From contig JAFXTO010000036.1 of NCBI GenBank assembly GCA_017535725.1, forward strand, positions 1 to 39,789: a stretch of DNA of 39,789 bases. Reading direction: 5' to 3'. This document shows, one piece after another, positions 24,071 to 39,789 of this stretch (within the stretch, counting starts at the first letter, position 1; every line of letters begins with the position of its first letter). The position numbers were made by a program, and so were the translations under genes. The stretch is from Bacteroidaceae bacterium (lineage in GTDB: Bacteria; Bacteroidota; Bacteroidia; Bacteroidales; Bacteroidaceae). The notes beneath the pieces were generated by a model, which was not told where the DNA came from, did not search any database, and saw nothing but the letters and a program-made list of their open reading frames with translations.

Positions 24071-24919
24071 TTACCGCATGATGAGGCAGAAGGTGGTGGT
24101 GTAGCCTGTTTGAGGGTGTTCCATCAATTCCAACCGTCCACCTTGACACACCAAGATCTGACAACTCAGAGACAGGCCGATTCCCGTGCCATCATGTTTA
24201 GTAGTGAAGAAGGGGACAAAGATGCTTTCACGCACTTCTGGAGGAATGGGGGCTCCATCATTTGAAATGAGAAGCGAAGCATTTTCTCTTTTCACTTGTA
24301 TTTTCCTCGCGCCCGCTTCAACGGCGTTTTTCGCCAAATTCATCACCACCTGCTGCAAAAGTACAGGATCGGCGTGAACCGTGGCATCGCAGAATGGCAG
24401 AATGTCCCATTCTATCTTTGAGAACAAACGTTCTATCTCCTTAAAGAAAACCGTGAGATTCACGTCCTGCAACTCGGGCTTCTGCAACTGAGAGAGCCGA
24501 CGGTAACTCTCCACGAAAGTCGTCAGGCGTGAGGCTGTGGAATGGATGCTTTGTATGCCCGCTTCCAGTGCCGTTCCCTTCACATCGTCGCGTCGTAGCA
24601 GACTCTGACTAATACTGGCAATAGGTGCCGTGGAATTCATGATTTCATGGGTCAGCACCCGCATCAGGCGCTCCCATGATTCCACTTCACCTTGACTGAC
24701 CTGCTGCCGGATTGCTTCGCCCAATTCGTTGAGTGTTTCCTGCATAGCCCGTTCCCCACTTGTCAGTCTTTTCGTGTTGAGTCTGAATGTCCAGTCATGA
24801 TTGCGGATGGCCTCACGCATCAGCCACGCCCGTTGACGCAGATTGTGCTGATGGCGCACAAAGAGCATCACCGCTAATGCCAGAAATAAAACTATTAATA
24901 GGATGAGGATGATTTTCAT
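24071..24919 (-). CDS. Short sensor histidine kinase
   Basis: The 282-aa protein has one N-terminal membrane helix (about 3-21), a helical linker and then the catalytic core: His91 in VLTHEIMNSTAPI, the N box NLAKNAVEAGA (194 onward), SNDGAPI, FVPFFTTK and GTGIGLSL. There is no periplasmic loop, PAS or GAF domain, so it is much shorter than usual NtrB-like kinases. Signal input may come through the membrane helix or a partner protein. It overlaps the upstream response regulator by 4 bp (ATGA) and is co-transcribed with it from 25457-25488. Confidence 0.92.
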   Translation of the reverse strand: MKIILILLIVLFLALAVMLFVRHQHNLRQRAWLMREAIRNHDWTFRLNTKRLTSGERAMQETLNELGEAIRQQVSQGEVESWERLMRVLTHEIMNSTAPIASISQSLLRRDDVKGTALEAGIQSIHSTASRLTTFVESYRRLSQLQKPELQDVNLTVFFKEIERLFSKIEWDILPFCDATVHADPVLLQQVVMNLAKNAVEAGARKIQVKRENASLLISNDGAPIPPEVRESIFVPFFTTKHDGTGIGLSLSCQILVCQGGRLELMEHPQTGYTTTFCLIMR

Positions 24920-25437
24920 TTTCGGTTAAGTTTGTTGTATAGCGTCTGGCGTGTGACCCCCAACATTCGTGCCGCCACGGTCAGGTTGCCATCGGCCCGG
25001 TCCACTGCCCGTCGGATATGTGCTTGTTCCACTTCGTCTAACGATGCCACTTCATGTTGTGCTGTCAGTACGTCAGAAAGCTTACTGATAAGTTCATCAT
25101 TGTCCCACGGCTTTGTGATGAAGTCGGCAGCGCCACTCTTCAGCGCACGCACAGCCAGCGGCACGTCGCCGTAAGCCGTGAGCATCACGACGGGCACATC
25201 CGGATGCCACTCGTGCAGCGTCTTCAACCACTGTAGTCCTTCCAGACCATTGTTCATTCCCATTGAGAAATTCATATCTAACAACACAATATCCACGGCC
25301 TCTGCCGCCATCGTGGGAAGCAGTTGATCAGGCCGCGAGAGCTTGATGATTCGCTCGAACGTGCCTTCTAATGCATAACCAAGCGCGGTCAGAATATTGG
25401 TGTTGTCGTCGCAGATGATAATGGTGCCGTAGTGCAT
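24916..25437 (-). CDS. Response regulator, receiver plus Fis-type HTH, no AAA+ domain
   Basis: The ATG at 25437 gives 173 aa (MHYGTIIICDD...); the longer frame covers the promoter. The receiver domain (about 1-125) has the acidic pair Asp10-Asp11, phospho-acceptor Asp54 in VLLDMNF, Thr87 and Lys109. A Fis-type helix-turn-helix follows at about 136-173 (GNLTVAARMLGVTRQTLYNK). NtrC-family regulators would have a sigma-54 AAA+ ATPase between these parts; here it is missing, giving a RegA/PrrA-like layout. It is divergent from tolC and the best candidate to bind the palindrome at 25526-25540 and its twin at 39556-39570. Confidence 0.92.
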   Translation of the reverse strand: MHYGTIIICDDNTNILTALGYALEGTFERIIKLSRPDQLLPTMAAEAVDIVLLDMNFSMGMNNGLEGLQWLKTLHEWHPDVPVVMLTAYGDVPLAVRALKSGAADFITKPWDNDELISKLSDVLTAQHEVASLDEVEQAHIRRAVDRADGNLTVAARMLGVTRQTLYNKLNRK

Positions 25438-25456: not shown

Positions 25457-25488
25457 CAAAGGTAGGCAAAACGACACTTATGGCCAAA
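25457..25488 (-). promoter_or_regulatory. -33/-7 promoter for the regulator-kinase operon
   Basis: On the minus strand TTTG (25485-25488), a 20-bp spacer and TACCTTTG (25457-25464) match the Bacteroidales consensus, 19 bp before the ATG at 25437. Confidence 0.75.
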
Positions 25489-25525
25489 TTTCGGCACGTG
25501 AAAGTGCTATGCGGACAAATAAAGT

Positions 25526-25540
25526 GTCTAATTTTTAGAC
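25526..25540. promoter_or_regulatory. Operator palindrome upstream of tolC
   Basis: GTCTAATTTTTAGAC is a perfect palindrome with 6-bp arms and a 3-bp centre. Its centre is about 84 bp before the likely tolC start site and about 45 bp before the -33 box, a usual position for an activator. A 14-of-15 copy in the same relative place lies at 39556-39570. Confidence 0.7.
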
Positions 25541-25578
25541 ATTTTACATCTGCAAGTCTACTTTTATTAAATCTACAA

Positions 25579-25610
25579 CTTGCAGGATCTTGAGAAATGC
25601 CCTAACTTTG
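25579..25610 (+). promoter_or_regulatory. tolC promoter
   Basis: CTTG (25579-25582), a 20-bp spacer and TAACTTTG (25603-25610) followed by CAC. CTTG lies in ACTTGCAG (25578-25585), which forms an inverted repeat with CTGCAAGT (25550-25557). The weak -33 box fits an activated promoter. Confidence 0.65.
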
Positions 25611-25650: not shown

Positions 25651-27018
25651 ATGTATAATTTCATTATGTCACACGCTTATTCCAGCCTCTTCGGACGCAT
25701 GGTTGTCTTTTTGCAGTGTATATTCCTATGTATTAGAATACAAGGTCAAGCTACCAGCGACACAACAGCACTCGCCATGACGGTGGAAGACTGTATGCGA
25801 TATGCGGTAGTACACAGCCATAGCCTGAGACAACAGGAACTCAGATTAGATAACTCCAAGGCTACACATTTGCAAGCCGTGGGGGCTTTCCTGCCCAGCC
25901 TCAACGCCTCAACAAGCATACAATGGAATTTCGGACGCGCCATCGACCCAGAAACAAACACGTACACGAGCGTGAGTACCTTTAATAATGGTTACGGCCT
26001 GTCGGCATCACTACCCGTCTTCGATGGCCTCTACCGTGTCCACGCCCTGCGTGCCGCACGAGCCGACGTCCTGTTGCAAAAAAATGCACTGCAAGCCAAT
26101 CGCGACCATGTGGCCCTACAGACCTATCAGGCTTTCATCGATGTCATCTATGCCCTGGAATCCGTGCACCTCGCCACAGAGAAACTACGTGAGAGTGAGA
26201 TGATACTTCATCGAACAAAGGTCATGGAAGAAGAAGGACTGAAAAGCCCTGCCGACGTAGCACTGATAATGGCACAACAGGCAGCCGATGAACTGATGCT
26301 GACAAAACAGGAGAACCAATTGGAAAGCTGTATGTTGAAGTTGAAGGAGGTCATGAATTGGCCGATGGATAATCCTATGCCAACACTCCATCCTATTACC
26401 TTGAGAACAGAGCCAGACGGGGAGGCCAGTTCATCAGCACTCCTTTTACAATCATTCTACTCCCTACAGTCAGCCCGTCACAACTTGCATGCCACCCGGG
26501 CCTCACTCTTCCCCACCCTCTCCCTCTCTGCCGGCATCAATTCCTCTTACTACCGCAACCTCAACAATCCGAGTGCGACCTCGTTCGGTCAACAGCTAAA
26601 AAACAACTTGGGTGAATATGTCTCCATCAACCTTTCCATTCCGCTCTTCAATCGTCTTGGCACAATGATGAGCCTACGGCGAGCAAAGAACAATCTGCTC
26701 ATTGCCGAAGAGCAATATGCTGCCAAACAGACAGAACTCGATGTCCTGCGCCGTCAGGCACGGCTTGACGTTGCTGCCTATTGCAAGGAAAGTGAACAAG
26801 GCGAGCAGAAGGTGGCTGCCGACAGCCTTGCCTACGAACTCGTGCGGCAGCAATATACCGAAGGATTGGCCTCCCCCATAGACCTGCAAACATCATCAGC
26901 CACCCTACTACAAAGTCGAGCCACTCTGCTCCAATCCCGCCTGATGGTAGGCGTCAAGGAGATGCAGCGCCGCTATTACGACGGACATCCCCTGGTGGAG
27001 ATAGGACATAAACCTTAA
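25651..27018 (+). CDS. TolC-family outer-membrane efflux protein
   Basis: The 455-aa product starts MYNFIMSHAYSSLFGRM; the ATG at 25666 is an alternative, and the export signal is the hydrophobic stretch MVVFLQCIFLCIRIQGQA. The mature part has the two-fold repeat of TolC proteins: long helical hairpins (MTVEDCMRYAVVHSHSLRQQ, LQAVGAFLPSLNASTSIQWN and, in the second half, ARHNLHATRASLFPTLSLSA) and beta strands with SIPLFNRLG. It forms the outer-membrane channel of a tripartite exporter with the adaptor encoded 52 bp downstream. The gap contains a small hairpin ACGGCT/AGCCGT (27050-27063). Confidence 0.92.
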   Translation: MYNFIMSHAYSSLFGRMVVFLQCIFLCIRIQGQATSDTTALAMTVEDCMRYAVVHSHSLRQQELRLDNSKATHLQAVGAFLPSLNASTSIQWNFGRAIDPETNTYTSVSTFNNGYGLSASLPVFDGLYRVHALRAARADVLLQKNALQANRDHVALQTYQAFIDVIYALESVHLATEKLRESEMILHRTKVMEEEGLKSPADVALIMAQQAADELMLTKQENQLESCMLKLKEVMNWPMDNPMPTLHPITLRTEPDGEASSSALLLQSFYSLQSARHNLHATRASLFPTLSLSAGINSSYYRNLNNPSATSFGQQLKNNLGEYVSINLSIPLFNRLGTMMSLRRAKNNLLIAEEQYAAKQTELDVLRRQARLDVAAYCKESEQGEQKVAADSLAYELVRQQYTEGLASPIDLQTSSATLLQSRATLLQSRLMVGVKEMQRRYYDGHPLVEIGHKP

Positions 27019-27070: not shown

Positions 27071-28321
27071 ATGGATAAACCCATCACACCCCGGAAAGGT
27101 TTGCAGCGCAAGCACATCCCCTACCTCGCCGCTGGCATGGTAATAATTCTCATCATCGCCTGGCTGATCCTTGGCAACCATGCATCCACCCTTCGCGTCA
27201 GCGCCGAAGACATCACTATTAGTGACGTCCGCCTCGCAGAATTCAAAGACTACGTGAGGCTGAGCGGACAAGTGGTGCCGATTCAGGTGGTGCAGCTCTC
27301 GCCCGAGGAAGGCGGCATCGTCACAGAGCGCGTAGCCGAAGAAGGAACTATGGTGCGCAAGGGTGATGTCATCATCCGACTGCGCAACAGCGGTCTCGAC
27401 CTGCAAATCCTCAACGCAGAGGCAGAACTGGCCGAGAAGCAGAACCTGCTGCGCAACACCCAGGTATCCATGCAGCAAGACCGCCTCAACAACCAGCTCG
27501 AACAGGCACAGCTCGCCATGGACACCGAGCGCAAGCTGCGTACCTTCCGCCAGAACGAGCGACTCTACAACGAGCGACTTATCAGCCGCGAAGTGTATCT
27601 CCAGAGCGAAGAAGACTACCGCTTAGCGCAGCGCAAGCAGGGACTTATCGTTCAGCGCCTGCAGCAGGACAGCATCTACCGCAGTGTACAGATGGACCAG
27701 ATGGAGGACAACCTCGCCAATATGCGGACGAATGTGGTTCTCGTGCGCGAGCGCAAGAATAAATTAGAGGTACGCGCGCCTATCGACGGCGAACTGGGAC
27801 TCTTAGAAGTGGAACTCGGACAGAGCGTCACCTCCGGACAGAAGATCGGGCAGGTCAACGACCTGAGCGATTATAAGATAGAAGCCCAAGTCGATGAGCA
27901 TTACATAGACCGAGTGCGAGCAGGGCTCTCTGCTAACTTCGTTCGTGGCGACGCCAACTTCTCATTGACAGTACGCAAGGTTTATCCCGAAGTGCGACAA
28001 GGCAAGTTCCGCACCGATTTCATCTTCCGAGACGAACGGCCCGCGAATATCCGCAGCGGTCAGACCTATTACCTCAACCTCGAACTGGGTCAGCCCGAAC
28101 AAGCAGTGCTCATCCCTCGCGGCGCTTTCTTCCAGAAGACCGGCGGCACCTGGATTTACGTCCTCAGCAGAGACGGACACACCGCCTTCCGACGCACCAT
28201 CCGCATCGGCCGCCAGAATCCGCAGTACTACGAAGTCACCGAAGGTCTGGAACCCGGCGAACGCGTCATCACCAGCGGCTACGAAGCCTTCGGCGACAAC
28301 GAGCGATTAGAGATAAAATAA
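27071..28321 (+). CDS. HlyD/MacA-type membrane fusion protein
   Basis: The 416-aa adaptor has one N-terminal membrane helix (HIPYLAAGMVIILIIAWLIL), a beta-barrel and lipoyl segment (LSPEEGGIVTERVAEEGTMV), a coiled-coil hairpin (about 115-225, rich in Gln/Leu/Arg), the returning lipoyl half (VRAPIDGELGLLEVELGQ) and the membrane-proximal domain (ITSGYEAFGDNERLEI at the end). It bridges an inner-membrane transporter and TolC. No transporter gene follows directly; the nearest permease candidate is at 39706. Confidence 0.93.
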   Translation: MDKPITPRKGLQRKHIPYLAAGMVIILIIAWLILGNHASTLRVSAEDITISDVRLAEFKDYVRLSGQVVPIQVVQLSPEEGGIVTERVAEEGTMVRKGDVIIRLRNSGLDLQILNAEAELAEKQNLLRNTQVSMQQDRLNNQLEQAQLAMDTERKLRTFRQNERLYNERLISREVYLQSEEDYRLAQRKQGLIVQRLQQDSIYRSVQMDQMEDNLANMRTNVVLVRERKNKLEVRAPIDGELGLLEVELGQSVTSGQKIGQVNDLSDYKIEAQVDEHYIDRVRAGLSANFVRGDANFSLTVRKVYPEVRQGKFRTDFIFRDERPANIRSGQTYYLNLELGQPEQAVLIPRGAFFQKTGGTWIYVLSRDGHTAFRRTIRIGRQNPQYYEVTEGLEPGERVITSGYEAFGDNERLEIK

Positions 28322-28533: not shown

Positions 28534-28541
28534 TACCTTTG
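28534..28541 (+). promoter_or_regulatory. -7 box for the second GH53 gene
   Basis: TACCTTTG followed by CCGCAG lies 39 bp upstream of the ATG at 28581. TTTG at 28504-28507 is a possible but distant -33 box. Confidence 0.6.
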
Positions 28542-28580
28542 CCGCAGATTTTATATAACCCAACAAAAAGACATGAAAGT

Positions 28581-30458
28581 ATGGCAAAAAAAGCTACTCT
28601 TTTAATTCTTCTGATGGCGATGACGTTCGGCGTACGCGCCATCACGGTGACCGACACGCTATTCAACCGGTCGGCACATGAGCTGGACTTCGCCTTTGGT
28701 GCAGACGTGAGTTTCGTTCCGCAGATGGAAGGCTGGGGCACGAAGTGGCTGGACAAGGATGGCCGTCAGAAAGACATCCTTCAGATACTTAAAGAACAGG
28801 GTATCAATAGTGTGCGGCTGCGCGTGTGGACGGTGGGCAGCGGTGCCAGCAGTAAGGCGGAGGTCGTCGGCATGTGCAAGCGTGCGAAGTCGAAAGGGAT
28901 GAGCGTGATGATTGACTTCCACTACAGCGACACATGGGCAGACCCAGGTAGCCAGACCATCCCGTCGGCATGGACAGACCATTCCGTGGAGGCGCTGGCG
29001 CAGCACGTTTACGACCACACGAAGGACGTGCTCTCTGCCATCAAGGCAGCTGGGGTGGTGCCCAAGTGGGTGCAAGTGGGTAACGAGACGAAGCGGGGAA
29101 TGCTGTACCCCGTCGGACAGACGAACAAGGGAGGCTCGGTGGCTTTCGCGAAGTTTGTTCAGGCGGGCTATGATGCCGTGAAGGCTGTGGACTCCACGAT
29201 GCAGGTAATCGTCCATCTGCCGGATGGTCATGATAATTCACTCTATCGGAGCATCTTCGACGGATTGAAGAAGAATGGTGCCAAGTGGGACATCATAGGA
29301 CTCTCTGCCTACCCTCGATGGTCACATCTGGACGGACCTACGATGATTACGAAGGTGATGGCAAACATCAATGACCTGAAGTCACGCTACAAGACCCCAT
29401 GTATGGTCGTGGAGACTGGTCACTATCCGAAGGAGGCTGTGGTGGGGAATCAGTATTTAGCGGGTGTGATGGACAGGATGATCAAGAATGGCGACCTGGG
29501 CTGCTTCTACTGGGAACCAGAATCCATGGGTGGCTACGATATGGGTGCCTGGGACGAGGCGACGAGGCGACCCACAGTGATGATGGATGCTTTCTTGGGC
29601 GTGAAACACACGGAAGTAAGTTGGATGATGAAGGTACGTATGCTCTCGCCGACGAAGGGGCAGAGTGTGGATGAGGGAGACGTGGAACTCCTGACGCGGG
29701 TGCAGCATCAGCGTAAAAACCGTATTCTGTCGGTGGAATTCCATCTGGACAAGAAGACAGCCGGAACGTATAAGGCGGAAGATATGAGTGCTATAGGCAG
29801 CACGGCCACCATTCCCTTTGTCCTGACGGACGTTCCAATAGGCGTTCACACAGCTTGGGCGAAAGCCACAGACACCTCAAAGAACACCCAGGTGAGTGAC
29901 ACGGTGACGTTCTTTGTGGGGCGTTCGGCGCTGCTGGACGAAGGTGTCGTGGAAAACGGGGACCAGAAAGGTGGAATAGAGCGTTGGGGCCTGGCCGTGG
30001 CAGAGACTGGCACCTATCGTCTGGTATTCCAATATGGCAGTCCGGCTCTGCGAGGTGGTGAGTTGAGATTGGACGGCGACAGCATCTCCAAGGCCTATTT
30101 CCAGAAGAATGCTGATGCTTACCAGTCTCTGGACATCGTAATACCAGAACCCGGCACTCATTTGCTGGAACTTGTTGCCACGAGCACAACCGGTCTGCCG
30201 GTAATATCCTCGTTGCGCGTCTTTCCATTGGAAGGTCAGGCTCTCCCCACAACTGCCGACGTGACGGGTGTTGGTTCGCGGTTCGGAGAAGACAAGGATG
30301 CGATGATTGATGTCTACACGTTGGGAGGTGTGTTCGTGAGGCAGGTTCCTCTGTCTCAGTTAGGAATATCTTTGGGACAACGGTCGTCGGCAGTGGTCGT
30401 TTTGCCAAACTGTGTGGGCGGCACGCCATACATCGTTCGGAAACACCGGCTGAAATAG
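28581..30458 (+). CDS. GH53 endo-beta-1,4-galactanase with C-terminal beta modules
   Basis: The ATG at 28581 gives 625 aa with signal peptide MAKKATLLILLMAMTFGVRA. The GH53 barrel (about 35-345) has SVRLRVWT, DFHYSDTWADPG, acid/base Glu169 in WVQVGNETKRG and nucleophile Glu278 in CMVVETGHY. It is followed by an Ig-like segment (about 355-460) and a galactose-binding-like beta sandwich (about 465-580), probably for carbohydrate binding. The tail (IDVYTLGGVFVRQ ... YIVRKHRLK) resembles a sorting tail. The last 103 bp overlap the end of the convergent AraC-type gene, so its final about 34 codons are antisense to that gene's DNA-binding domain. Confidence 0.9.
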   Translation: MAKKATLLILLMAMTFGVRAITVTDTLFNRSAHELDFAFGADVSFVPQMEGWGTKWLDKDGRQKDILQILKEQGINSVRLRVWTVGSGASSKAEVVGMCKRAKSKGMSVMIDFHYSDTWADPGSQTIPSAWTDHSVEALAQHVYDHTKDVLSAIKAAGVVPKWVQVGNETKRGMLYPVGQTNKGGSVAFAKFVQAGYDAVKAVDSTMQVIVHLPDGHDNSLYRSIFDGLKKNGAKWDIIGLSAYPRWSHLDGPTMITKVMANINDLKSRYKTPCMVVETGHYPKEAVVGNQYLAGVMDRMIKNGDLGCFYWEPESMGGYDMGAWDEATRRPTVMMDAFLGVKHTEVSWMMKVRMLSPTKGQSVDEGDVELLTRVQHQRKNRILSVEFHLDKKTAGTYKAEDMSAIGSTATIPFVLTDVPIGVHTAWAKATDTSKNTQVSDTVTFFVGRSALLDEGVVENGDQKGGIERWGLAVAETGTYRLVFQYGSPALRGGELRLDGDSISKAYFQKNADAYQSLDIVIPEPGTHLLELVATSTTGLPVISSLRVFPLEGQALPTTADVTGVGSRFGEDKDAMIDVYTLGGVFVRQVPLSQLGISLGQRSSAVVVLPNCVGGTPYIVRKHRLK

Positions 30459-32275
30459 CTGACGGAGGAGAAACCCGTGTCGTAGCTGACTTCGGTGACG
30501 GACAGGTGTCCTTCGCGCAGGAGTTCTGCTGCTCGGCGCAGGCGTATGGTGCGTATGAACTCCGAGGGCTTTTGTCCTGTGGCCGACTGAATTTTGCGAT
30601 AGAAGGTCATTCGGCTCATGGCAAGGTCGTTGCTGAGTTGTTCCACTCCGTATTCATCTTTGTCGATATGACTCATGACAAGGGCAATGGCCTTCTGTAG
30701 CCACTGCTCTTCGGGGTTGAGCAGAGGAGAGGCTGCGTCTTGAGGCGAAGGGGCAGACTCGTGTGACGATGGTGGTGCCTCCCTGACAGCCTCCCGGATG
30801 GAGTCGAGGAACCTGCGGCGCTGTTTCCTTAATATATAATAATGTATCATCAGCGCCAGCAACAATGCGACGATGATCAGGAAGATGAGCCACATCCACC
30901 AGGCGGTGAGCCATCTTGGCAGCCGCTCGACGACCATGTTCCTCTCGGGGTGGCTCCATCGCTGATATGGTTGGGTCTCTGCGAGCTCTATGGCGTAGGT
31001 ACCAGTAGCCTCGCGGCTCTGCTGTCGCAGGGTGTGGCGCTGGGGGTCGTAAAGTCGGACGTAGCGTTCGAAGACGAGAAGCATTCGCTGGAGGCTGTCG
31101 GTCTGGAGGGCGAGGAGGGCGTCGCCGTATTCGTTCGAGGCGTAATCGTCAGTGCTGAGGATGCCTTCCTTGAAGGTATGTATGACTCCGTAGATGCTTC
31201 CAAGCCAGAGCGTACCATCTGCCGCAAAGGTCATGGCAGCGATGTCGGCAAGATCTGGAAGTATAACTTCTTCGGTCGCAAAGGGTTGCTGCTGACGGCG
31301 TATATCTTGTCCTGTGCTGAACCAGAACCGTCCCGTGGAATCGAAGGTATATGCGGCGGGACGCTGAGAGAGTCCTCTGGCATCTCGCAGGGAATCCGCG
31401 AGAAAGGGAGATGAGGGGTGTGTCTGGTACCAGAGCTGCTGGGGTGCGGATGTAATGACAAAGCAGTTCCCCGTGCCGTCGGCCACGAGCAGCCGCCCGT
31501 TGTTGTCGAAACGTTCGTGGCTCAAGGAGAAAGACTGGTGGAAAGGCAGGGAGACAGGGGTGGAGACAGCGTCGGCGGGCAGGTTTGGTTGATAGAGAAC
31601 AGTGCCCATGCCGAATGTGCTGATGAGCAGTCCTTCTCCGGAGGGATTGTCGGCAATGTTCGTAGGTGCGACCTCGTGGGGCCAGGGAGCAGGCTGCAGG
31701 CGTCCGTCGGTGAGTTGCAGTAGCCCGCCTTGCCACTGGGAGGCCCAAATACGTCCGCTGGTGTCTTGGTGGAGCCGGAAGATGTATTTGTCACCGGCGG
31801 GATAGGTGTTGAGGAGATGTCCGTCGGAGGAGAATTCAAAGACTTTCTTATTGGCCGTGATCCACCAATGTCCATCCTTCGTGACCATAACATCATCGAC
31901 TCGTTTGTCGTCTACCTCTGTGAGCTGGCGAATGTTGTAATCACTCTTGTCGAGGACGTAGGCTCCGTGGAAGGTTCCGATAATGATGTGACTTCCTGCC
32001 GCTGCCAAGCTGGCGATATTGTTGCTGCCGAGGAGGTCGGGGTGCCGTGCATCATTGCGAAAGACTGTCATCTGGTGCCCGTCGTCGCAACAGACGCCTC
32101 CGCCCTCCGTGGCATACCAAACGAATCCCTCTTCGTCCTGAACAATGCAGTTCACTCGTGGTGATGGCAACTGCTCCAGGTTGGGCAGTTGCAACCGTTG
32201 GAGCGTTTGTGCGCTGAGGTATGGATGCAAGAGAACGATGGTGCAGAGCAGGATGAAGCAGTCTTTGGGTTTCAT
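30356..32275 (-). CDS. Membrane-spanning propeller sensor with AraC-type HTH, no kinase or receiver
   Basis: The 639-aa product has a signal peptide (ending LSAQ) and a periplasmic beta-propeller of hybrid two-component type (SPRVNCIVQDEEGFVWYATE and later D..GR.W blades at about 165-185, 305-325 and 350-365). One membrane helix lies at about 455-482 (WWMWLIFLIIVALLLALMIH), and after a 40-residue linker an AraC HTH fills about 525-625 (VEQLSNDLAMSRMTFYRKIQ, VSYDTGFSSVSYFSRCFR). Classical hybrid regulators have roughly 1,300 aa with a Y_Y_Y domain, kinase and receiver; all are missing here. It presumably senses galactan or arabinan fragments and activates the flanking genes directly from the membrane. 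Confidence 0.85.
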   Translation of the reverse strand: MKPKDCFILLCTIVLLHPYLSAQTLQRLQLPNLEQLPSPRVNCIVQDEEGFVWYATEGGGVCCDDGHQMTVFRNDARHPDLLGSNNIASLAAAGSHIIIGTFHGAYVLDKSDYNIRQLTEVDDKRVDDVMVTKDGHWWITANKKVFEFSSDGHLLNTYPAGDKYIFRLHQDTSGRIWASQWQGGLLQLTDGRLQPAPWPHEVAPTNIADNPSGEGLLISTFGMGTVLYQPNLPADAVSTPVSLPFHQSFSLSHERFDNNGRLLVADGTGNCFVITSAPQQLWYQTHPSSPFLADSLRDARGLSQRPAAYTFDSTGRFWFSTGQDIRRQQQPFATEEVILPDLADIAAMTFAADGTLWLGSIYGVIHTFKEGILSTDDYASNEYGDALLALQTDSLQRMLLVFERYVRLYDPQRHTLRQQSREATGTYAIELAETQPYQRWSHPERNMVVERLPRWLTAWWMWLIFLIIVALLLALMIHYYILRKQRRRFLDSIREAVREAPPSSHESAPSPQDAASPLLNPEEQWLQKAIALVMSHIDKDEYGVEQLSNDLAMSRMTFYRKIQSATGQKPSEFIRTIRLRRAAELLREGHLSVTEVSYDTGFSSVSYFSRCFRTMYGVPPTQFGKTTTADDRCPKDIPN

Positions 32276-32476
32276 TAAGGGATACTAGTACTGTGAATGT
32301 GTGGACAAAAGTAGTAAAAAAAACCTTGGGAACGGCATGAATTGTCCAAAAAAGATAGAAGATGGTGTATTTTGTTACATTTTTGCAATGAATTGTTAAG
32401 ATATTGCAACCCTAATCGGTTAATTATTGCGACCTTTGCAGCACGAAAACTCATCAAACCCATTTATTCTATCATT
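32276..32476. promoter_or_regulatory. Divergent promoter region, regulator and GH51 operon
   Basis: For the minus-strand regulator, CAAAAGTA at 32306-32313 reads TACTTTTG, 31 bp from its ATG. For the GH51 gene, GACCTTTG (32431-32438) followed by CAGC is a near-consensus -7 box, 39 bp from the ATG. The region between is AT-rich and is a likely place for the regulator's own binding site, which I could not identify. Confidence 0.5.
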
Positions 32477-35008
32477 ATGAGAAAAACGTTTGTATTCTTC
32501 GGCACACTGATGAGCATCTTTTGTGCCAGCGCCCAGACGGAGCCCATCCGCATCGACCTTCAGCAAAAAGGTGCTGTTGTGTCGCCTAACCTCTATGGTA
32601 TCTTCTTCGAGGAGATTAATCATGCCGGGGACGGTGGTCTCTATGCTGAACTGGTTCAGAACCGTGGCTTCGAGGAGCAAGTGCTACCCTCTGGCATGAC
32701 GCTGAAGGAGGGACGGGCTTTGGCTCCCAATGCCATGAATTATGAGCACCGGAACAATCGCCATTGGAGTATTCCCTGGAACGTGGAGGAGAAGAAAATG
32801 ACCGGCTGGACGGTGAGGGGCGAGCAGGCCTACGTAAAGGGCGAGGTCGTGGAAGTGCCACAACCGCTGCACCCGAATACGCCCCATGCCATGCAACTCA
32901 CCATCAAGAAGGTGCAGCAGGGTGGAAAGGCGTTACTCACCAACACTGGTTACTGGGGCATAGGATTGAAACAGGGAGAGAAGTATGACCTGCGATTCTA
33001 TGTCAAGAGCAGCAACTACAGGGGCTGCATCACTGTCCGCCTGGTGGACACGGAGAGTGGAACATCACTTGGAAAGGCAGAATTCAGGGATAGACAGCTG
33101 AAGGAGTGGACGGAGCTCACGGCTACGCTGACGGCCGACGGCACAACAGCCAAGGGCGCGCTGGCATTGGAATTCGACCAAAAGGGTACGTTGTTCGTTG
33201 ACTACGTATCGCTCTTCCCTCAGGCCACCTTTAAAGGTCGGAAGAATGGCCAGCGTGCCGACGTGGCTCAGATGCTGGTGGACCTGCACCCGAAGTTCAT
33301 GCGATGGCCCGGAGGCTGCATCGTCGAGGGCGCAACGTACGAGAACCGCGTGAGGTGGAAGGAGACACTGGGCGACCCGATGACGCGACGTGGCGAGTGG
33401 GATCTCTGGGGGTATCGTGCCACCTGGGGCATGGGATACCATGAGTTCCTGCAGTTCTGCGAGGATCTGGGTATGGACGCTATGTTTGTGAACAATGCTG
33501 GTATGTCCTGCTCGGTGCGCAATGGTGATTTCGTCAGCAGCGATGCCGCCATGGAAGCCGTGGTTCAGGACTTCCGCGATGCCATAGACTACGCCCTCGC
33601 AGATCCAGCTGCCAACAAGTGGGCTAAGATGCGTGCCGATGCCGGCCACCCGAAACCTTTCCCCCTGAAGTATGTGGAAATCGGAAACGAGAACGTGGGA
33701 CCAGAGTATGTCACCCACTTCAATTATATCTTCCAGAAGCTGAAGGCCGAGTATCCGCAGATCATCTTCATCAACACACTCGGACACACCGACCCGCTGC
33801 TGGAGCGGATTCCTGGCGACTACATGGTGGATCCCCACTGGTACCGCAATCCCGACTTCTTCTTTGCCAACTACCACCTCTTCGACGATGCACCGCGCAC
33901 CCGTGACATCTATGTTGGCGAGTACGCCTGCAACGGTGGCGTCGGTGCCGGCAACCTGCTGGCAGCCTTGAGTGAAGCTGCCTTCATCCTGGGCATGGAG
34001 CGCAACAGCGACGTGGTGAAGATGTCATCATACGCACCCCTGTTCGAGAACGAGAACCGCCGCGACTGGCCATGCAACCTCATCCACATCAACAGTTCCG
34101 AGGTCTACGGTCGCGCCTCGTACTACGTTCAGCAGATGGCTGCCGAGAACCGCCCCACCTATAATGTCTATGTGAGCGAACCCACCACGGCAACCCCGGC
34201 AGACCCCTTTGCCGCAGGGGGCGTAGGACTGGGCAGCTATGCCACGCAGTGCGAGTACAAGGACATCTGCGTTGTCACGGCCGACGGTCAGACGACTCGC
34301 TACCAACCCTCCCAACTCACCACCGAGCGCGGACAATGGCAGGTGGAAGGCGAGGTGCTCCGCCAGACCTCCGATGCACGCACATCGCTGGCTATGCTGC
34401 CGGCCATCAACAGCGACAACTACACCATCACCCTGAAAGCACGCAAGACGGGTGGCATGGAAGGTTTCTTCATCTTCTATTCCCTTGATGAGAGAGGACG
34501 CAGCGGCTATGGTGTCAACATTGGCGGATGGAACAATCAGATCACAGCGGTGCAGCCCATGCGCGGCGGGCGCCTGACGGACGTCGTCAGCCCCCGTGTC
34601 CGCCAGAGTGTGGAGACGGGGAAGTGGTACGACATCAAGCTCGTAGTTACTCCGATGGCTGCAACGCTCTTTGTCGATGGCAAGGAAATCACCGTAGCCA
34701 AGCCGGCAGAACCTACGCGCCACTTCTGCCAGACCGGCTACGACGAACAGACGGGTGAGCTCGTCATCAAGGTTGTCAATGGCTCCGACCACCCCTACAG
34801 CCGTTCCTTCTGCATCGACGGTGCCAGGAACGTCATGCCCACGGGGCGCGTCATCACCCTCAGCGGCAACGCACAGGACGAGAACACCTTCGAGGAGCCC
34901 ACGAAACTGTCGCCACAGACCACCCTCTACAGCAAGTTCGGCAAGCGGTTCACCTATGAGTTCGCACCATCCTCGTTCACCATCATCCGTGTGAAGGTGG
35001 AGCGCTGA
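32477..35008 (+). CDS. GH51 alpha-L-arabinofuranosidase, exported
   Basis: The ATG at 32477 gives 843 aa with signal MRKTFVFFGTLMSIFCASAQ. An N-terminal strand region (SPNLYGIFFEEINHAGDGGLY) is followed by a carbohydrate-binding-like insertion (about 95-250), then the GH51 barrel with MRWPGGCIVEG, acid/base Glu405 in VEIGNENVGPEY and nucleophile Glu482 in YVGEYACNGG. After the GH51 beta domain begins, a LamG or concanavalin-like module appears at about 635-760 (GFFIFYSLDERGRSGYGVNI). It removes arabinose side chains from arabinan or arabinogalactan. It leads a three-gene run with GH43 and the GH53 fusion. Confidence 0.93.
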   Translation: MRKTFVFFGTLMSIFCASAQTEPIRIDLQQKGAVVSPNLYGIFFEEINHAGDGGLYAELVQNRGFEEQVLPSGMTLKEGRALAPNAMNYEHRNNRHWSIPWNVEEKKMTGWTVRGEQAYVKGEVVEVPQPLHPNTPHAMQLTIKKVQQGGKALLTNTGYWGIGLKQGEKYDLRFYVKSSNYRGCITVRLVDTESGTSLGKAEFRDRQLKEWTELTATLTADGTTAKGALALEFDQKGTLFVDYVSLFPQATFKGRKNGQRADVAQMLVDLHPKFMRWPGGCIVEGATYENRVRWKETLGDPMTRRGEWDLWGYRATWGMGYHEFLQFCEDLGMDAMFVNNAGMSCSVRNGDFVSSDAAMEAVVQDFRDAIDYALADPAANKWAKMRADAGHPKPFPLKYVEIGNENVGPEYVTHFNYIFQKLKAEYPQIIFINTLGHTDPLLERIPGDYMVDPHWYRNPDFFFANYHLFDDAPRTRDIYVGEYACNGGVGAGNLLAALSEAAFILGMERNSDVVKMSSYAPLFENENRRDWPCNLIHINSSEVYGRASYYVQQMAAENRPTYNVYVSEPTTATPADPFAAGGVGLGSYATQCEYKDICVVTADGQTTRYQPSQLTTERGQWQVEGEVLRQTSDARTSLAMLPAINSDNYTITLKARKTGGMEGFFIFYSLDERGRSGYGVNIGGWNNQITAVQPMRGGRLTDVVSPRVRQSVETGKWYDIKLVVTPMAATLFVDGKEITVAKPAEPTRHFCQTGYDEQTGELVIKVVNGSDHPYSRSFCIDGARNVMPTGRVITLSGNAQDENTFEEPTKLSPQTTLYSKFGKRFTYEFAPSSFTIIRVKVER

Positions 35009-35057
35009 AGTACCTGGTAACATCCGGACTATTATCTATTTGTGAAAATAAGTCGAC

Positions 35058-36827
35058 ATGAAAAATCATTTCACCTTATTCCTTGCGGCGGCGATGGCCC
35101 TCGTTCCGTGCGTAGGCCGCACCGCCACAGGCACACGCGTCAGCGTTCACGACCCCAGCATTGTCTGGAACCCCTCCAACAAGACCTATTATATTTTTGG
35201 TTCCCATCGCGCCACCGCCACGAGCCGCGACATGATCAACTGGACGTGGAGCAGCTTCTCCTGGTATGGTAATGCCAGCAACGCCAACACCTTCAGGACC
35301 CAGCAGGCAACGACCATGGTGAAGAACGGCGAAGAAGTGGAATTCCCCAACTTCGATGCCACGGGATGGTCGGGAGCACTCGGCAACTACAACATCGACG
35401 GGAACCTCTGGGCACCAGATGTCATCTACAACACGGCAATGAAGAAGTGGTGCATGTACATGAGCGTCAATGGACCCACGTGGAACTCCAGCATCGTCCT
35501 GCTCACCGCCAGCAGCATCACAGGTCCCTACCGCTATCAGGGACCCGTCGTGGTCACAGGCTTCAACGTCAACGGCAACGCCAACGTAGACTATAAGAAG
35601 ACGGACCTCGAACTGGCCATCGGTGCGCAGAAGTCACTGCCCTCGCGGTACAATGCCTACTGGGGTCGGCGCTGGCCGCATGCTATCGACCCCTGCGTCT
35701 TCTATGACGAGGAAGGACTCCTCTGGATGAGCTATGGCTCATGGAGCGGAGGCATCTGGATTCTCAGGCTGAATGCCGAGACGGGACTGCGCGACTATGA
35801 TGTGAAATACCCCATTGCCGGCTCTGGGGACAACGTGACCAGCGACCCCTACTTCGGCAAGCGCATCGCTGGCGGATTCTATGCCTCGGGCGAAGGGTCA
35901 TACATCGAGTACATCGACGGGTTCTACTTCCTCTTTGTCAGCAATGGCGGCCTGGCTGAAGGCGGCAAGCAGGACGACTACAACCATGGAGGATACCAGA
36001 TGCGCGTCTTCCGCTCCTCCAAACCCGACGGACCCTATAAGGACCGCCGCGGTCAGAACGCAGTACTCAGCAACTACGAACTCAACTTCGGGCCCAACAG
36101 CAGCCAGCTCGGAGTCAACATTTTCGGAGCTTACAGTGACTGGGGCTACCAGACCGTGGGCGACAGAGGCGAACGCTCTCAGGGCCACAACTCCATCATC
36201 GCTGCACAGGACGGGCGTATCTATCTCGTATATCACACCCGGTTCCAGACGGGTGGAGGATTCGAGAACCGGGTCCATCAGTGCTACCTCAACAAAGAAA
36301 AATGGCTCGTGGCGGCGCCATTCGAGTATTCCGGCGAGAGGGTGAAGACTGCAGACATACCAGCCAAGCAGTTGGTTGCCACCGACAAGGTTCCAGGCGT
36401 CTATCAATTCCTCAAACACAGCTATGGCCTTGACCACCGTAAGAAGGAGGTCTCTACACCAGTGGAAATCAACCTCAATTACGACGGCACTATCTCCGGC
36501 GACCTTTCTGGGAGATGGACCATAGAAGAAGGAACCTCCTACATCACGGTCAATTGCGGAGGAGTGACCTACAGGGGCGTCGTGGTCGAACAGACCTTGG
36601 AACCTAGGACTACCAGGACGCCGGCGTTCACCGCACTGGCCGCCAACGGAACAACCGCCTGGGGCTACAAGAAAGCGAGCCTGCCGGTACCAGATGCCGT
36701 CAGCGGTGCCGCCGAAGCACCAGCCACCAACGAGCAGTGGTACGACCTGAGAGGTATGCCCGTGAAGATGCCACTGAAGGGAGGCGTCTATATTAGGAAC
36801 GGCCGCCGCTATCTCATCAAAAACTAA
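35058..36827 (+). CDS. GH43 arabinanase-type enzyme, exported
   Basis: The 589-aa product has a signal peptide (MKNHFTLFLAAAMALVPCVG). The five-bladed GH43 propeller shows Asp32 in SVHDPSIVW (general base), Asp211 in HAIDPCVFYDEEG (pKa modulator) and a Glu in YASGEGSYIEYIDG (acid, probably Glu279). The overall pattern (GSWSGGIW, GHNSIIAAQDGRIYLVYHTR) fits endo-alpha-1,5-L-arabinanases. A C-terminal beta domain and the short tail YDLRGMPVKMPLKGGVYIRN follow. It lies 49 bp after the GH51 gene and 32 bp before the GH53 fusion, so co-transcription is likely. Confidence 0.92.
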   Translation: MKNHFTLFLAAAMALVPCVGRTATGTRVSVHDPSIVWNPSNKTYYIFGSHRATATSRDMINWTWSSFSWYGNASNANTFRTQQATTMVKNGEEVEFPNFDATGWSGALGNYNIDGNLWAPDVIYNTAMKKWCMYMSVNGPTWNSSIVLLTASSITGPYRYQGPVVVTGFNVNGNANVDYKKTDLELAIGAQKSLPSRYNAYWGRRWPHAIDPCVFYDEEGLLWMSYGSWSGGIWILRLNAETGLRDYDVKYPIAGSGDNVTSDPYFGKRIAGGFYASGEGSYIEYIDGFYFLFVSNGGLAEGGKQDDYNHGGYQMRVFRSSKPDGPYKDRRGQNAVLSNYELNFGPNSSQLGVNIFGAYSDWGYQTVGDRGERSQGHNSIIAAQDGRIYLVYHTRFQTGGGFENRVHQCYLNKEKWLVAAPFEYSGERVKTADIPAKQLVATDKVPGVYQFLKHSYGLDHRKKEVSTPVEINLNYDGTISGDLSGRWTIEEGTSYITVNCGGVTYRGVVVEQTLEPRTTRTPAFTALAANGTTAWGYKKASLPVPDAVSGAAEAPATNEQWYDLRGMPVKMPLKGGVYIRNGRRYLIKN

Positions 36828-36859
36828 CATATATCACATAAAAAAATCTCTCTGAAAGT

Positions 36860-39448
36860 ATGAAAAAGACATGGATTTGCTTATTGCTGCTGGCGCTGCC
36901 GCTGGTGGCGGGCGCACAGAGCACCACAAAAGATTTTGTTAAGGGAGCCGACGTGGGATTCCTCACGGGCCAGGAACGCCGTGGGGTGAAGTTCCACGAT
37001 CGCAACGGACAGGAACGGGAGTGCCTGGAGCTCCTGAAGAACGACTACCAGATGTCCGCCATCCGCATGCGCGTCTGGGTCAATCCCCGGGGCGGAGACT
37101 GCGACAAAAACACACTGCTGGCCATGGCACGCCGCGTGAAGGCGCTGGACATGGACCTCATGGTAGATTTCCACTATGCTGACTCGTGGGCCGACCCCGG
37201 CAAACAACCCATCCCCGCTGCCTGGCAGGGACACTCGTTTAAGCAAATGCTGCAGGATGTGCGGGAGCACACCATCGACGTCCTCTCGCTGCTGAAGCAG
37301 AACGACATCGAGCCGCGCTGGGTGCAGGTGGGCAACGAGACGGCCAACGGACTGTTGTGGCCCATGGGACATATCGAGAAGAATCCCAAGCAGTATGCGG
37401 GGTTCATACGTGCCGGCTACGACGCCGTGAAAGAGGTGTTTCCGCAGGCTACGGTCCTTGTACACCTGGACCGGGGCCACAAGCAGAGCCTCTATGACTG
37501 GAACCTCAACATCATCAAGAAGTACGGTGGCAAGTGGGATATGATAGGCATGTCGCTCTATCCCTACTGGGCCACCAAGGGAGGCACACCCGAACAAGAC
37601 AACCAGATCATCACCGACTGCATGGCTAACATCCGCCACTGCAGCGAGAAATATGGGTGCGATGTGATGATTGTGGAGACAGGCTTTGAGGTCGACGAGC
37701 AGCACCCGGAGAAGATGGAGGAGGGACGCCGCCAGTTGGCGCGCGTCATCCGTGAGGCTCGCACGGCCACCAACGGTCACTGCCGCGGTGTCTTCTACTG
37801 GGAACCGCAATGCCTGCCCGGAGGCTACAAGCTGGGAGCCTTCGACCACAATGCCGCCCCGACGGCCATCATGGAAGGTTTCGTGGAGGCCAGCCAGCAG
37901 CAAATCACCATCACGGAGAATATCCATTATAAACAGGAGCCGTCCTGCGTCCTCGACCTGGCGCAACCCCTCTTCGGTCCGCAGAAGAACCGCCCTGCCA
38001 TCCTCATCATCCACGGCGGCGGATGGAGTGCGGGGTCGAAGAACGACCTGGTGTACCGCAGCCTCATGGTGGACTATGCCCTGAAGGGCTATGTCGTCTG
38101 CAACATGAACTACCGCCTGGTGCAGGAAGCTCCCATGCCTGCATGCATCGAGGACGTGCAGACCGCCATTCGCTGGATGAAGTCGCATGCCGAAGAACTG
38201 GGCATCGACCCCAACCGCATCGGCACCTATGGTCACTCTGCCGGCGGACACCTCTCGCTCATGGCGGGTCTGACGGCTGACATCGCCTGTGCCGCAGGCG
38301 GTGCTCCTCCTACGGAGATCGGCCGCGCCGGCGAGTGGGCAGACCACACCGAGTGGTGGCCCATAGGCTACATCGGGGCATCGGAGACGCCCTTCCTCGT
38401 GCTGCAAGGAGGCGAGGATCCCATCGTGCGACCCAATCTGACCGAGGACTGGGTTACGAAGATGCAGCGGGCTGGTGCACAGGTGGACTATGTGAAGGTC
38501 CACGGGCAGCACAGCGTAGCCTTCGACCAGCAACTGGAGTTCACCCGTCCGGCGCTGGACGCCTTCTTCGCACGCCACCTCCGGCACGACGACCCCAGCG
38601 TCAGCTTCGAGCAGATGAAGGTGCCTGAGTATGGCGGCAGCGGACCCTTCAAGGCCGTGGCCGTGCGGGAGAAGACGCTGCAGGACTTCGTGGTCTACAG
38701 GCCTATGAACCTGGATGCCGCCATGAATATTGGCCAGCGAGGTATGTTTGGACGCGGCGAGATGAAGCGGGAACAGCTGCCCGTGCTCATCTTCTGCAAC
38801 GGCGGCTGCATGGACACCAGTATCGGTTATGAGAATATGCTCACCGAGGTGGCTTCCTACGGCTACGTGGTCATCGCCATCGGCGAACTGCAGATGATGG
38901 CACAGCATGAGAAGGATCAGCACACGCCATCGTCGATGGTGCAGAAGGCTCTGGACTGGATCTGCCAGCGTGCTGCCGACCCCGCCTCACCATATTATAA
39001 TAAGGTGGACACGACGCGTATGGCCGCTGCGGGTCATTCATGCGGCGGTGCACAGGTGCTGGCCAATGCCGCTGACCCGCGTCTGAAGACCTACCTCATC
39101 CTCAACGCCGGCATGGGCAAGATGACGATGGCGGATGCGAGTGCCCAGTCCCTGAAGCAACTTCACGGTCCCATCCTCTACCTCGTCGGAGGCACTACGG
39201 ACGTAGCTTGGCAGAACGCACAGATGGACTACGAGGCCATCAAGAAGGTGCCTGTGGTTCTGGCCGACAACACCCAGAGCGGTCATGGCGGCACCTATGA
39301 GCAACCCCTCGGCGGCGCCAACGCACGCATGGTACGCGCTTGGCTGGACTGGCAGCTGAAGGGCAAGAGCGAGCCTGAGGCTCTCTTCCTCCGAAGTGAC
39401 CTGACGGGCTATGACCAGTGGACCATCAAGCACAAAAACTTCAAGTAA
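36860..39448 (+). CDS. Three-module enzyme: GH53 galactanase fused to two alpha/beta hydrolases
   Basis: The 862-aa product has a signal peptide ending VAGAQ. Module 1 (about 22-345) is GH53: FHYADSWADPGK, acid/base Glu160 in WVQVGNETANG, nucleophile Glu273 in MIVETGFEV. Module 2 (about 355-575) is an esterase-like alpha/beta hydrolase: oxyanion HGGGWSAG, Ser460 in YGHSAGGHLS, Asp520 in GGEDPIV, His551 in GQHSVAF. Module 3 (about 595-850) is a second hydrolase: Ser727 in AGHSCGGAQ, Asp781 in GGTTDVAW, His809 in SGHGGTY. Both triads look intact. I infer that it cuts galactan and removes acetyl or feruloyl esters in one secreted protein. The frame is continuous across both junctions, so this is a real fusion in the given sequence. 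Confidence 0.9.
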   Translation: MKKTWICLLLLALPLVAGAQSTTKDFVKGADVGFLTGQERRGVKFHDRNGQERECLELLKNDYQMSAIRMRVWVNPRGGDCDKNTLLAMARRVKALDMDLMVDFHYADSWADPGKQPIPAAWQGHSFKQMLQDVREHTIDVLSLLKQNDIEPRWVQVGNETANGLLWPMGHIEKNPKQYAGFIRAGYDAVKEVFPQATVLVHLDRGHKQSLYDWNLNIIKKYGGKWDMIGMSLYPYWATKGGTPEQDNQIITDCMANIRHCSEKYGCDVMIVETGFEVDEQHPEKMEEGRRQLARVIREARTATNGHCRGVFYWEPQCLPGGYKLGAFDHNAAPTAIMEGFVEASQQQITITENIHYKQEPSCVLDLAQPLFGPQKNRPAILIIHGGGWSAGSKNDLVYRSLMVDYALKGYVVCNMNYRLVQEAPMPACIEDVQTAIRWMKSHAEELGIDPNRIGTYGHSAGGHLSLMAGLTADIACAAGGAPPTEIGRAGEWADHTEWWPIGYIGASETPFLVLQGGEDPIVRPNLTEDWVTKMQRAGAQVDYVKVHGQHSVAFDQQLEFTRPALDAFFARHLRHDDPSVSFEQMKVPEYGGSGPFKAVAVREKTLQDFVVYRPMNLDAAMNIGQRGMFGRGEMKREQLPVLIFCNGGCMDTSIGYENMLTEVASYGYVVIAIGELQMMAQHEKDQHTPSSMVQKALDWICQRAADPASPYYNKVDTTRMAAAGHSCGGAQVLANAADPRLKTYLILNAGMGKMTMADASAQSLKQLHGPILYLVGGTTDVAWQNAQMDYEAIKKVPVVLADNTQSGHGGTYEQPLGGANARMVRAWLDWQLKGKSEPEALFLRSDLTGYDQWTIKHKNFK

Positions 39449-39510: not shown

Positions 39511-39555
39511 CAAGTTAAAAAATGTTTTTTTGATGGGCGGCGTGTAGGGAGGGGT

Positions 39556-39570
39556 GTCTATTTTTTAGAC
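39556..39570. promoter_or_regulatory. Operator palindrome upstream of the ABC permease gene
   Basis: GTCTATTTTTTAGAC differs by one base from the tolC palindrome at 25526-25540. Flanking bases are also similar (GTGTCTA before; ATCTGC after). The distance from its end to CTTGCAG is 38 bp at both sites. Confidence 0.7.
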
Positions 39571-39608
39571 GTTTTTATATCTGCGGAAGCAGAAAGTGGG
39601 ACGGAGGG

Positions 39609-39641
39609 CTTGCAGGTAAAGGGAATTTGTACGTACCTTTG
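39609..39641 (+). promoter_or_regulatory. ABC permease promoter
   Basis: CTTG (39609-39612), a 21-bp spacer and TACCTTTG (39634-39641) followed by CAC. It copies the arrangement of the tolC promoter, including CTTGCAG around the -33 box. The leader to the ATG is about 58 nt. Confidence 0.7.
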
Positions 39642-39705: not shown

Positions 39706-39789
39706 ATGTCTTCTCTCTTCTACCTGGCGCGCCGCTTCAAGACCGCCACCGCGCTGAACATCCTTGGCTTGACCGTAGCCTTCGCCGCC
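39706..39789 (+). CDS. ABC transporter permease (MacB/FtsX type), N-terminal 28 codons
   Basis: The ATG at 39706 opens a frame that runs off the window: MSSLFYLARRFKTATALNIL followed by GLTVAFAA. A short basic ARRF segment before the first membrane helix is the usual start of FtsX/MacB-type permeases encoded beside TolC and HlyD genes in Bacteroidales. It carries the same promoter layout as tolC, which supports its being the inner-membrane partner of that exporter. The identification rests on a short fragment. Confidence 0.75.
   Translation, partial: MSSLFYLARRFKTATALNILGLTVAFAA

Follow-up and report, generated by a model that had tools for sequence, protein, structure and literature searches.

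Putative operator dyads of an AAA+-less NtrC-type response regulator at exporter promoters of a Bacteroidaceae bacterium and their probable origin as sigma54 enhancers

The window analyzed here is the whole stretch of 39,789 nt given above, contig JAFXTO010000036.1 of a Bacteroidaceae bacterium, whose genome assembly comprises 2.9 Mb in 72 contigs and is 76% complete. It carries a two-component system next to exporter genes:

24071 to 24919, reverse strand: histidine kinase of 282 aa, short form, with HATPase_c domain
24916 to 25437, reverse strand: response regulator of 173 aa, receiver and Fis-type HTH, no AAA+; likely start ATG at 25437
25651 to 27018, forward strand: TolC-type outer membrane efflux protein (Pfam)
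27071 to 28321, forward strand: HlyD/RND-type periplasmic adaptor
39707 to 39789, forward strand: start of an FtsX/MacB-type ABC permease gene, truncated where the contig ends, recognized by its first residues compared with relatives such as L148

The receiver domain (PF00072, E 3.7e-21) and the Fis-type HTH (PF02954, E 9.9e-12) of the regulator were both identified using Pfam. An AAA+ sigma54-interaction domain was not found in the Pfam scan of this protein and is missing in the alignment too. The exporter is represented in the window by TolC, the adaptor and the cut permease, and no ATPase was seen there. TolC, adaptor, permease and ATPase are encoded together in the related locus L060 and in several units in other relatives, and the two sites of the window described below, at a distance of 14 kb from each other, probably mark two parts of a single exporter locus. 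The stretch from adaptor to permease (28539 to 39448) splits this locus and contains GH53, arabinofuranosidase, GH43 and GH53/esterase genes together with an AraC-type/propeller regulator.

Two arrays of dyad and promoter were identified in the window, together with the promoter of the regulator gene:

25525 to 25541, no strand: dyad 1, TGTCTAATTTTTAGACA, between the divergent regulator and tolC promoters, the presumed regulator binding site
39555 to 39571, no strand: dyad 2, TGTCTATTTTTTAGACG, before the permease promoter
25579 to 25582, forward strand: −33 type box CTTG of the tolC promoter, inside CTTGCAG (25579 to 25585)
25603 to 25610, forward strand: −7 type box TAACTTTG of the tolC promoter
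39609 to 39612, forward strand: −33 type box CTTG of the permease promoter, inside CTTGCAG (39609 to 39615)
39634 to 39641, forward strand: −7 type box TACCTTTG of the permease promoter
25457 to 25464, reverse strand: −7 type box TACCTTTG of the regulator promoter, divergent from tolC
25485 to 25488, reverse strand: −33 type box TTTG of the same promoter, separated from dyad 1 by 37 bp

Within the dyads, perfect palindromes were read in the window sequence at 25526 to 25540 on the tolC side (GTCTAATTTTTAGAC) and at 39556 to 39570 on the permease side (GTCTATTTTTTAGAC). The preliminary description of this DNA had reported the palindromes, the CTTGCAG motifs and the −7 boxes at both loci with an equal gap of 38 bp between dyad and CTTGCAG, and this was borne out by the window coordinates. 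The spacer between the −33 and the −7 boxes was found to be 20 nt at tolC vs. 21 nt at the permease gene, so that this spacing is not identical.

The −33/−7 promoter consensus of the Bacteroidota is TTTG / TAnnTTTG. With TTG and TAnnTTTG boxes 19 to 22 bp apart as the criteria, promoters were called at both loci, as CTTG-N20-TAACTTTG and CTTG-N21-TACCTTTG. An alternative assignment of CTTGCAG as the −12 element of a sigma54 promoter was rejected by eye, since at tolC there is no GG at −24 and at the permease gene the nearby GG is one or two bases off. The regulator promoter reads away from dyad 1 with its −33 box 37 bp off, so that dyad 1 lies nearly midway between two divergent promoters. This second promoter facing dyad 1 was absent from the preliminary description, as were the tandem dyads of relatives and the sigma54-enhancer-like origin treated below. 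The position of the palindrome upstream of both divergent promoters led us to reject a terminator or RNA hairpin.

Between the dyad and the −33 box, many promoters of permease genes that belong to the 38-bp class have a second conserved block, approximately GCAGAAAGTGGG; in the window it is located at 39589 to 39600. The block is also present at the permease promoters of L151, L153, L157, L159, L168, L170 and L173, with variants in L148, L150, L165 and L167. The block is absent at the tolC gene of the window.

Taken alone, the palindrome is mildly unusual in the window. With at most one mismatch allowed, two were found (both exact) where 0.62 were expected, and 11 of 100 window shuffles reach two. 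A search of the genome to which the window belongs gave 4 sites for GTCTAN5TAGAC vs. 1 for the reversed pattern; the two sites outside the window have a G or C centre and fall within long frames free of stops (645 and 406 codons).

For the identification of further sites, 139 same-genus genomes were searched with the pattern GTCTAN5TAGAC-N24..42-TTG-N20..26-TAnnTTTG, using the reversed pattern as control. A total of 29 matches was obtained in 20 of the genomes, three of them the window's own, vs. none for the control. The genes behind these matches are 7 tolC, 3 regulator, 18 FtsX/MacB-type permease and 1 FecCD permease genes. The earlier proposal would have been refuted by a palindrome that is frequent and randomly placed, or absent from orthologous tolC promoters; neither turned out to be the case. 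Pfam was applied to 13 target genes (8 permeases, 1 FecCD, 4 tolC) and to the tolC and regulator genes of the window, and the remaining genes, including the cut permease of the window, were assigned by their first residues. FtsX was found in all 8 permeases analyzed and MacB_PCD in 7 of them. The FecCD-type target (genome G112) diverges from one of the FtsX/MacB-type permease genes. In this genome (L152/L168) a single dyad is located between the permease gene and the FecCD-type gene, the latter having its own −33/−7 promoter at 27 bp.

The pattern allowed gaps of 24 to 42 nt between dyad and TTG, and only gaps of 26–27 and 37–38 nt were found in the 29 matches. Furthermore, the variant dyad TGTATGAN3TCATACA combined with the promoter gave 11 matches in 8 of the 139 genomes (control 0). 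The short regulator was detected in 62 of the 139 genomes (cut-off E 1e-40), among them 19 of the 20 genomes with a GTCTAN5TAGAC site and 7 of the 8 with a variant site. The first site is thus present in 19 of 62 genomes with the regulator vs. 1 of 77 without it (Fisher p 4.8e-7), a value which treats the genomes as independent and is too small because related genomes are not. For the variant site the corresponding value, which ignores relatedness, is p 0.022. Target genes, co-occurrence and quantised spacing support the earlier proposal of a small regulon of the neighboring Fis-HTH response regulator, acting from about −82/−84.

Next to the short regulator, dyads recur in relatives. A total of 105 short-regulator loci was compiled from the window, 24 genome stretches and the best 80 of 575 confirmed records, the latter ranked by regulator similarity and not by the dyad; some genomes are present twice. 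Cultured strains with an orthologue of the short regulator include Prevotella ruminicola KHT3 (L109) and Leyella stercorea DSM 18206 (L139). An upstream dyad was found in 92 of these 105 loci (shuffles: 367 of 2,100) and tandem dyads in 68 of them (shuffles: 2 of 2,100), whereas 13 of the 105 had no dyad by the criteria used. Among the 98 distinct upstream sequences of this selection, all 65 dyad pairs 17 to 40 bp apart are exactly 23 bp apart, and dyad and promoter were both called in 66. In these 66 upstream sequences from the same selection, the distance from the dyad to the −33 box is 41–43 bp in 55 cases and 53–54 bp in 9, with single outliers of 40 and 66 bp. The window belongs to the 54-bp class and has a single dyad. 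In the window's clade (8 sequences including the window and omitting L035 and L038, whose dyad-to-−33 distance is off by one base), the identity of the spacer was 0.34 at constant length and that of the dyad 0.81. Overall, the dyads were found in the genus of the window as well as in further genera and families.

The arginine R163 of the regulator is invariant in 21 aligned regulators. We take it to be the equivalent of Fis Arg85, on the basis of the Fis sequence. In the available part of a published analysis, Arg85 of Fis contacts the G of the high-affinity site, which has a 15-bp core with G at position 7, Y-R at 3–4, an A/T centre and T at 8 (PMC4784862). The T at 8, the G at 7, the pyrimidine-purine step at 3–4 and the A/T centre are all common to this core, as far as described there, and the dyad (PMC4784862). 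In its sequence pattern the dyad fits a Fis-like operator, although it would serve as an operator before a few genes, whereas the Fis site is that of a nucleoid protein. A covariation between the recognition helix and the half-site (Asn vs. position 6) gave strong raw counts, with few independent changes and exceptions in L129, L136, L137 and G059/L046. On the tree it was not significant, with supported branches providing 2 independent contrasts (sign test p 1), and it was not used as evidence.

The origin of the short regulator was traced through its long relatives. In other families of the order, the best matches listed were regulators of ~440–490 aa in which the receiver alone matched, and within the same family short forms as well as long ones of ~440–500 aa occur in other genera. 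A scan of three long forms placed a sigma54 AAA+ domain in the middle of each protein, with the receiver on one side and the HTH on the other, and all 40 long regulators examined for the ATP-binding motif were found to contain it. In the alignment with the long regulator of L246, residues 4–123 of the window regulator match 5–124 (52%) and residues 123–172 match 403–454 (48%), leaving out ~278 residues of AAA+ domain and lid. In the tree, 27 short forms are on one side of a branch (100/100) and 39 long forms on the other. In addition, a 262-aa regulator from another genus (L230, 4447–5232) has an apparent diverged piece of the lid; this piece was recognized by pairwise comparison (35% over 125 columns including the HTH, E 1e-18), and the Pfam match to AAA_lid_14 (E 0.013) is below its cut-off. 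By its sequence L230 is a possible intermediate of the loss. Loss of the AAA+ domain is the better direction than gain, because the short form aligns to the long one with the motor missing, the short forms group on one branch and L230 has kept a relic. A second AAA-less set (L225–L232, L234) forms its own clade; a single clade together with the Prevotella-like set was not rejected (AU p 0.418), and within a single bacterial family the domain would have been lost in one line or in two separate ones.

In 35 of the 40 long regulators (L059–L063, L174–L208), GAFTDA was observed in place of the GAFTGA loop; of the others, one has GAFTHA and one GAFTGA (cut by the frame end), and in three no such motif was found. 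The kinases beside the short regulators comprise 282 aa in the window (24071–24919), 292 aa in L043 (8363–9238) and 311 aa in L039 (8093–9025), and the kinase beside the long regulator of L060 (7113–8447) comprises 445 aa. Since the shorter kinases are next to short regulators, parts of the sensor may have been lost along with the AAA+ domain.

For a comparison of promoter classes, loci with long regulators were chosen from match lists by regulator similarity before any look at dyads. Of the 38 long loci whose regulator has the recognition helix R[QP]TLYNK, 31 have an upstream dyad; with other helices the figure is 8 of 31, near the shuffle rate. In the same-helix loci, 13 of 15 dyad pairs are 21–23 bp apart. 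A sigma54-like element was defined as TGGCAC-N5-TTGC-like with a score of at least 9/12, located 70–72 or 92–95 bp from the proximal or distal dyad. It was identified in 22 of the 31 same-helix long loci with dyads, the remaining 9 having no such element at these distances, and in 2 of the 8 long loci with dyads and other helices. At the set distance it was found in none of 100 short-regulator loci with dyads, 5 of which reach the score at other positions. In L246, a perfect TGGCACGATATTTGCA precedes tolC. Under a stricter definition (at most 2 mismatches), the element is present at the dyad in 7 of 38 long vs. 1 of 111 short loci. Conversely, 64 of 111 short loci have a dyad at a −33/−7 promoter, compared with none of the 38 same-helix long ones. 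As the same dyads are located at a fixed distance from sigma54-like promoters in the long-regulator relatives, the dyad looks like an ancestral sigma54 enhancer. In L176 and L190, paralogous long regulators with the helix NRSTLY are accompanied by other dyads (TGTTGGAAAATCCAACA, TGTAGGAAAATCCAACA), perhaps their own operators.

A loss of sigma54 as the cause of the switch was rejected, since rpoN was found in 98 of 101 genomes searched, G000 included. The sigma54 activator domain was found in 132 of 139 same-genus genomes, with one such domain in G000. The presence of rpoN and the activator domain kept in G000 indicate that the switch is local to this circuit.

The sites, their distances, their co-occurrence with the regulator, the domain loss and the difference in promoter class can be read directly from the sequences. 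On this basis we regard it as likely that the dyad is the operator of the neighboring regulator, which would have lost its AAA+ domain and kept its enhancer sites, and that the targets now have −33/−7 promoters with class I-like activation. The wider history appears probable, namely that a two-component regulon moved from sigma54 enhancer to housekeeping-sigma control by excision of the AAA+ domain in one or two lines, with the enhancer DNA kept, a half-decayed form still visible in L230 and the tandem enhancer now serving as a helically phased class I site.

According to this proposal, the ancestral sites would have been TGT-N11-ACA dyads, often in tandem 21–23 bp apart, acting as enhancers 70–72 bp upstream of sigma54 promoters. 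A Bacteroidota enhancer-binding regulator of the NtrC type would then have lost the central AAA+ motor and the lid (~278 residues), leaving receiver and Fis-type HTH. The dyads would have been kept and the target promoters would have become those of the housekeeping sigma factor (−33/−7 type), located ~42 or 54 bp from the proximal dyad, two distances that differ by about one turn of the helix. The kinase presumably phosphorylates the regulator, whose dimer would bind the dyad in a Fis-like manner, with the recognition-helix Arg directed to the outer G. From about −70 or −82 the dimer may contact RNA polymerase, as in class I activation, and thereby activate tolC, the permease genes and the regulator gene itself; in relatives with the proximal dimer at −70 a second dimer would be located near −93. 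Since the two distances are about one helical turn apart, a contact on one face of the DNA fits.

Repression by the regulator bound at the dyads, for instance through looping or occlusion of its own promoter, is improbable. The distal dyad overlaps the −33 region of the regulator's own promoter in 29 of 81 loci, so that autorepression is possible there. However, the dyads are upstream of the −33 boxes of the divergent target promoters, at two distances about one helical turn apart, and the ancestral sigma54 arrangement is activating by the nature of sigma54. A location upstream of −33 is the usual place of an upstream activator.

It is still less probable that another transcription factor binds the dyad and that the regulator is only its neighbor. 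Two of the 28 site-bearing genomes (G048 and G134) have sites and no short regulator detected at E 1e-40, their assemblies being incomplete (82% and 84%). The sites nevertheless track the regulator across genomes as well as across the change from long to short forms, the long loci with dyads are largely those with the R[QP]TLYNK helix, and the dyad has the Fis-core form expected for a Fis-type HTH, going by the available part of the source (PMC4784862). A chance palindrome, or one kept only through recent copying between promoters, is hardly credible: the 15-mer alone is just mildly rare in the window, but the 29 matches without any in the control, the spacers diverged in sequence at constant length and the dyads of other genera and families contradict it.

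An operator of the neighboring regulator derived from a sigma54 enhancer can be compared with known systems. The long NtrC-type regulators of the Bacteroidota (L246, L238, L060) have in common with the window regulator a receiver with LDMNF insertion, the Fis-type HTH, the dyads and the kinase/TolC/adaptor/permease neighborhood; the window regulator differs in having neither AAA+ domain nor lid and in targets of the −33/−7 instead of the −24/−12 type. In R. capsulatus and Caulobacter, NtrC proteins without the GAFTGA loop act at sigma70 promoters, according to the accessible part of the source (PMC10274813). As described in that part, these proteins have kept the AAA+ domain with a deletion of the loop only (PMC10274813). 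In the window regulator, by contrast, the motor is missing altogether, and the ancestral enhancer DNA appears traceable. The domain layout of RegA/PrrA/ActR (receiver and Fis-type HTH without AAA+) is the same, and the window regulator scored 71.5 bits against NF033791, not reaching the cut-off of 250. Among PDB entries, its closest relative is the receiver 2qr3 (E 7.2e-35); 3rqi, in which receiver and HTH were matched, gave E 2.8e-14. By sequence and architecture, and in trees without a RegA row, the window regulator lies among the Bacteroidota NtrC-type regulators.

Control of FtsX-like ABC permeases by sigma54 in Bacteroidia was proposed by motif scoring in the available text of PMC12316311. 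These permeases represent the same target-gene class in the same phylum and match the ancestral state proposed here; AAA-less regulators or dyads are not treated in that text (PMC12316311). In the literature searched, which was largely without subscription papers, we found no description of an AAA-less descendant that has retained its enhancer.

Activation by sigma54 and by sigma70 is usually taught as two distinct mechanisms. Among the related living species compared here, both states are found with homologous regulators and one and the same DNA site, and the promoter class changes with the motor domain. The rewiring of an enhancer circuit without loss of the operator would thereby be directly testable with natural parts. 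Furthermore, with the dyad a candidate operator has been defined for an export-pump regulon of Prevotella-like bacteria from the rumen and gut.
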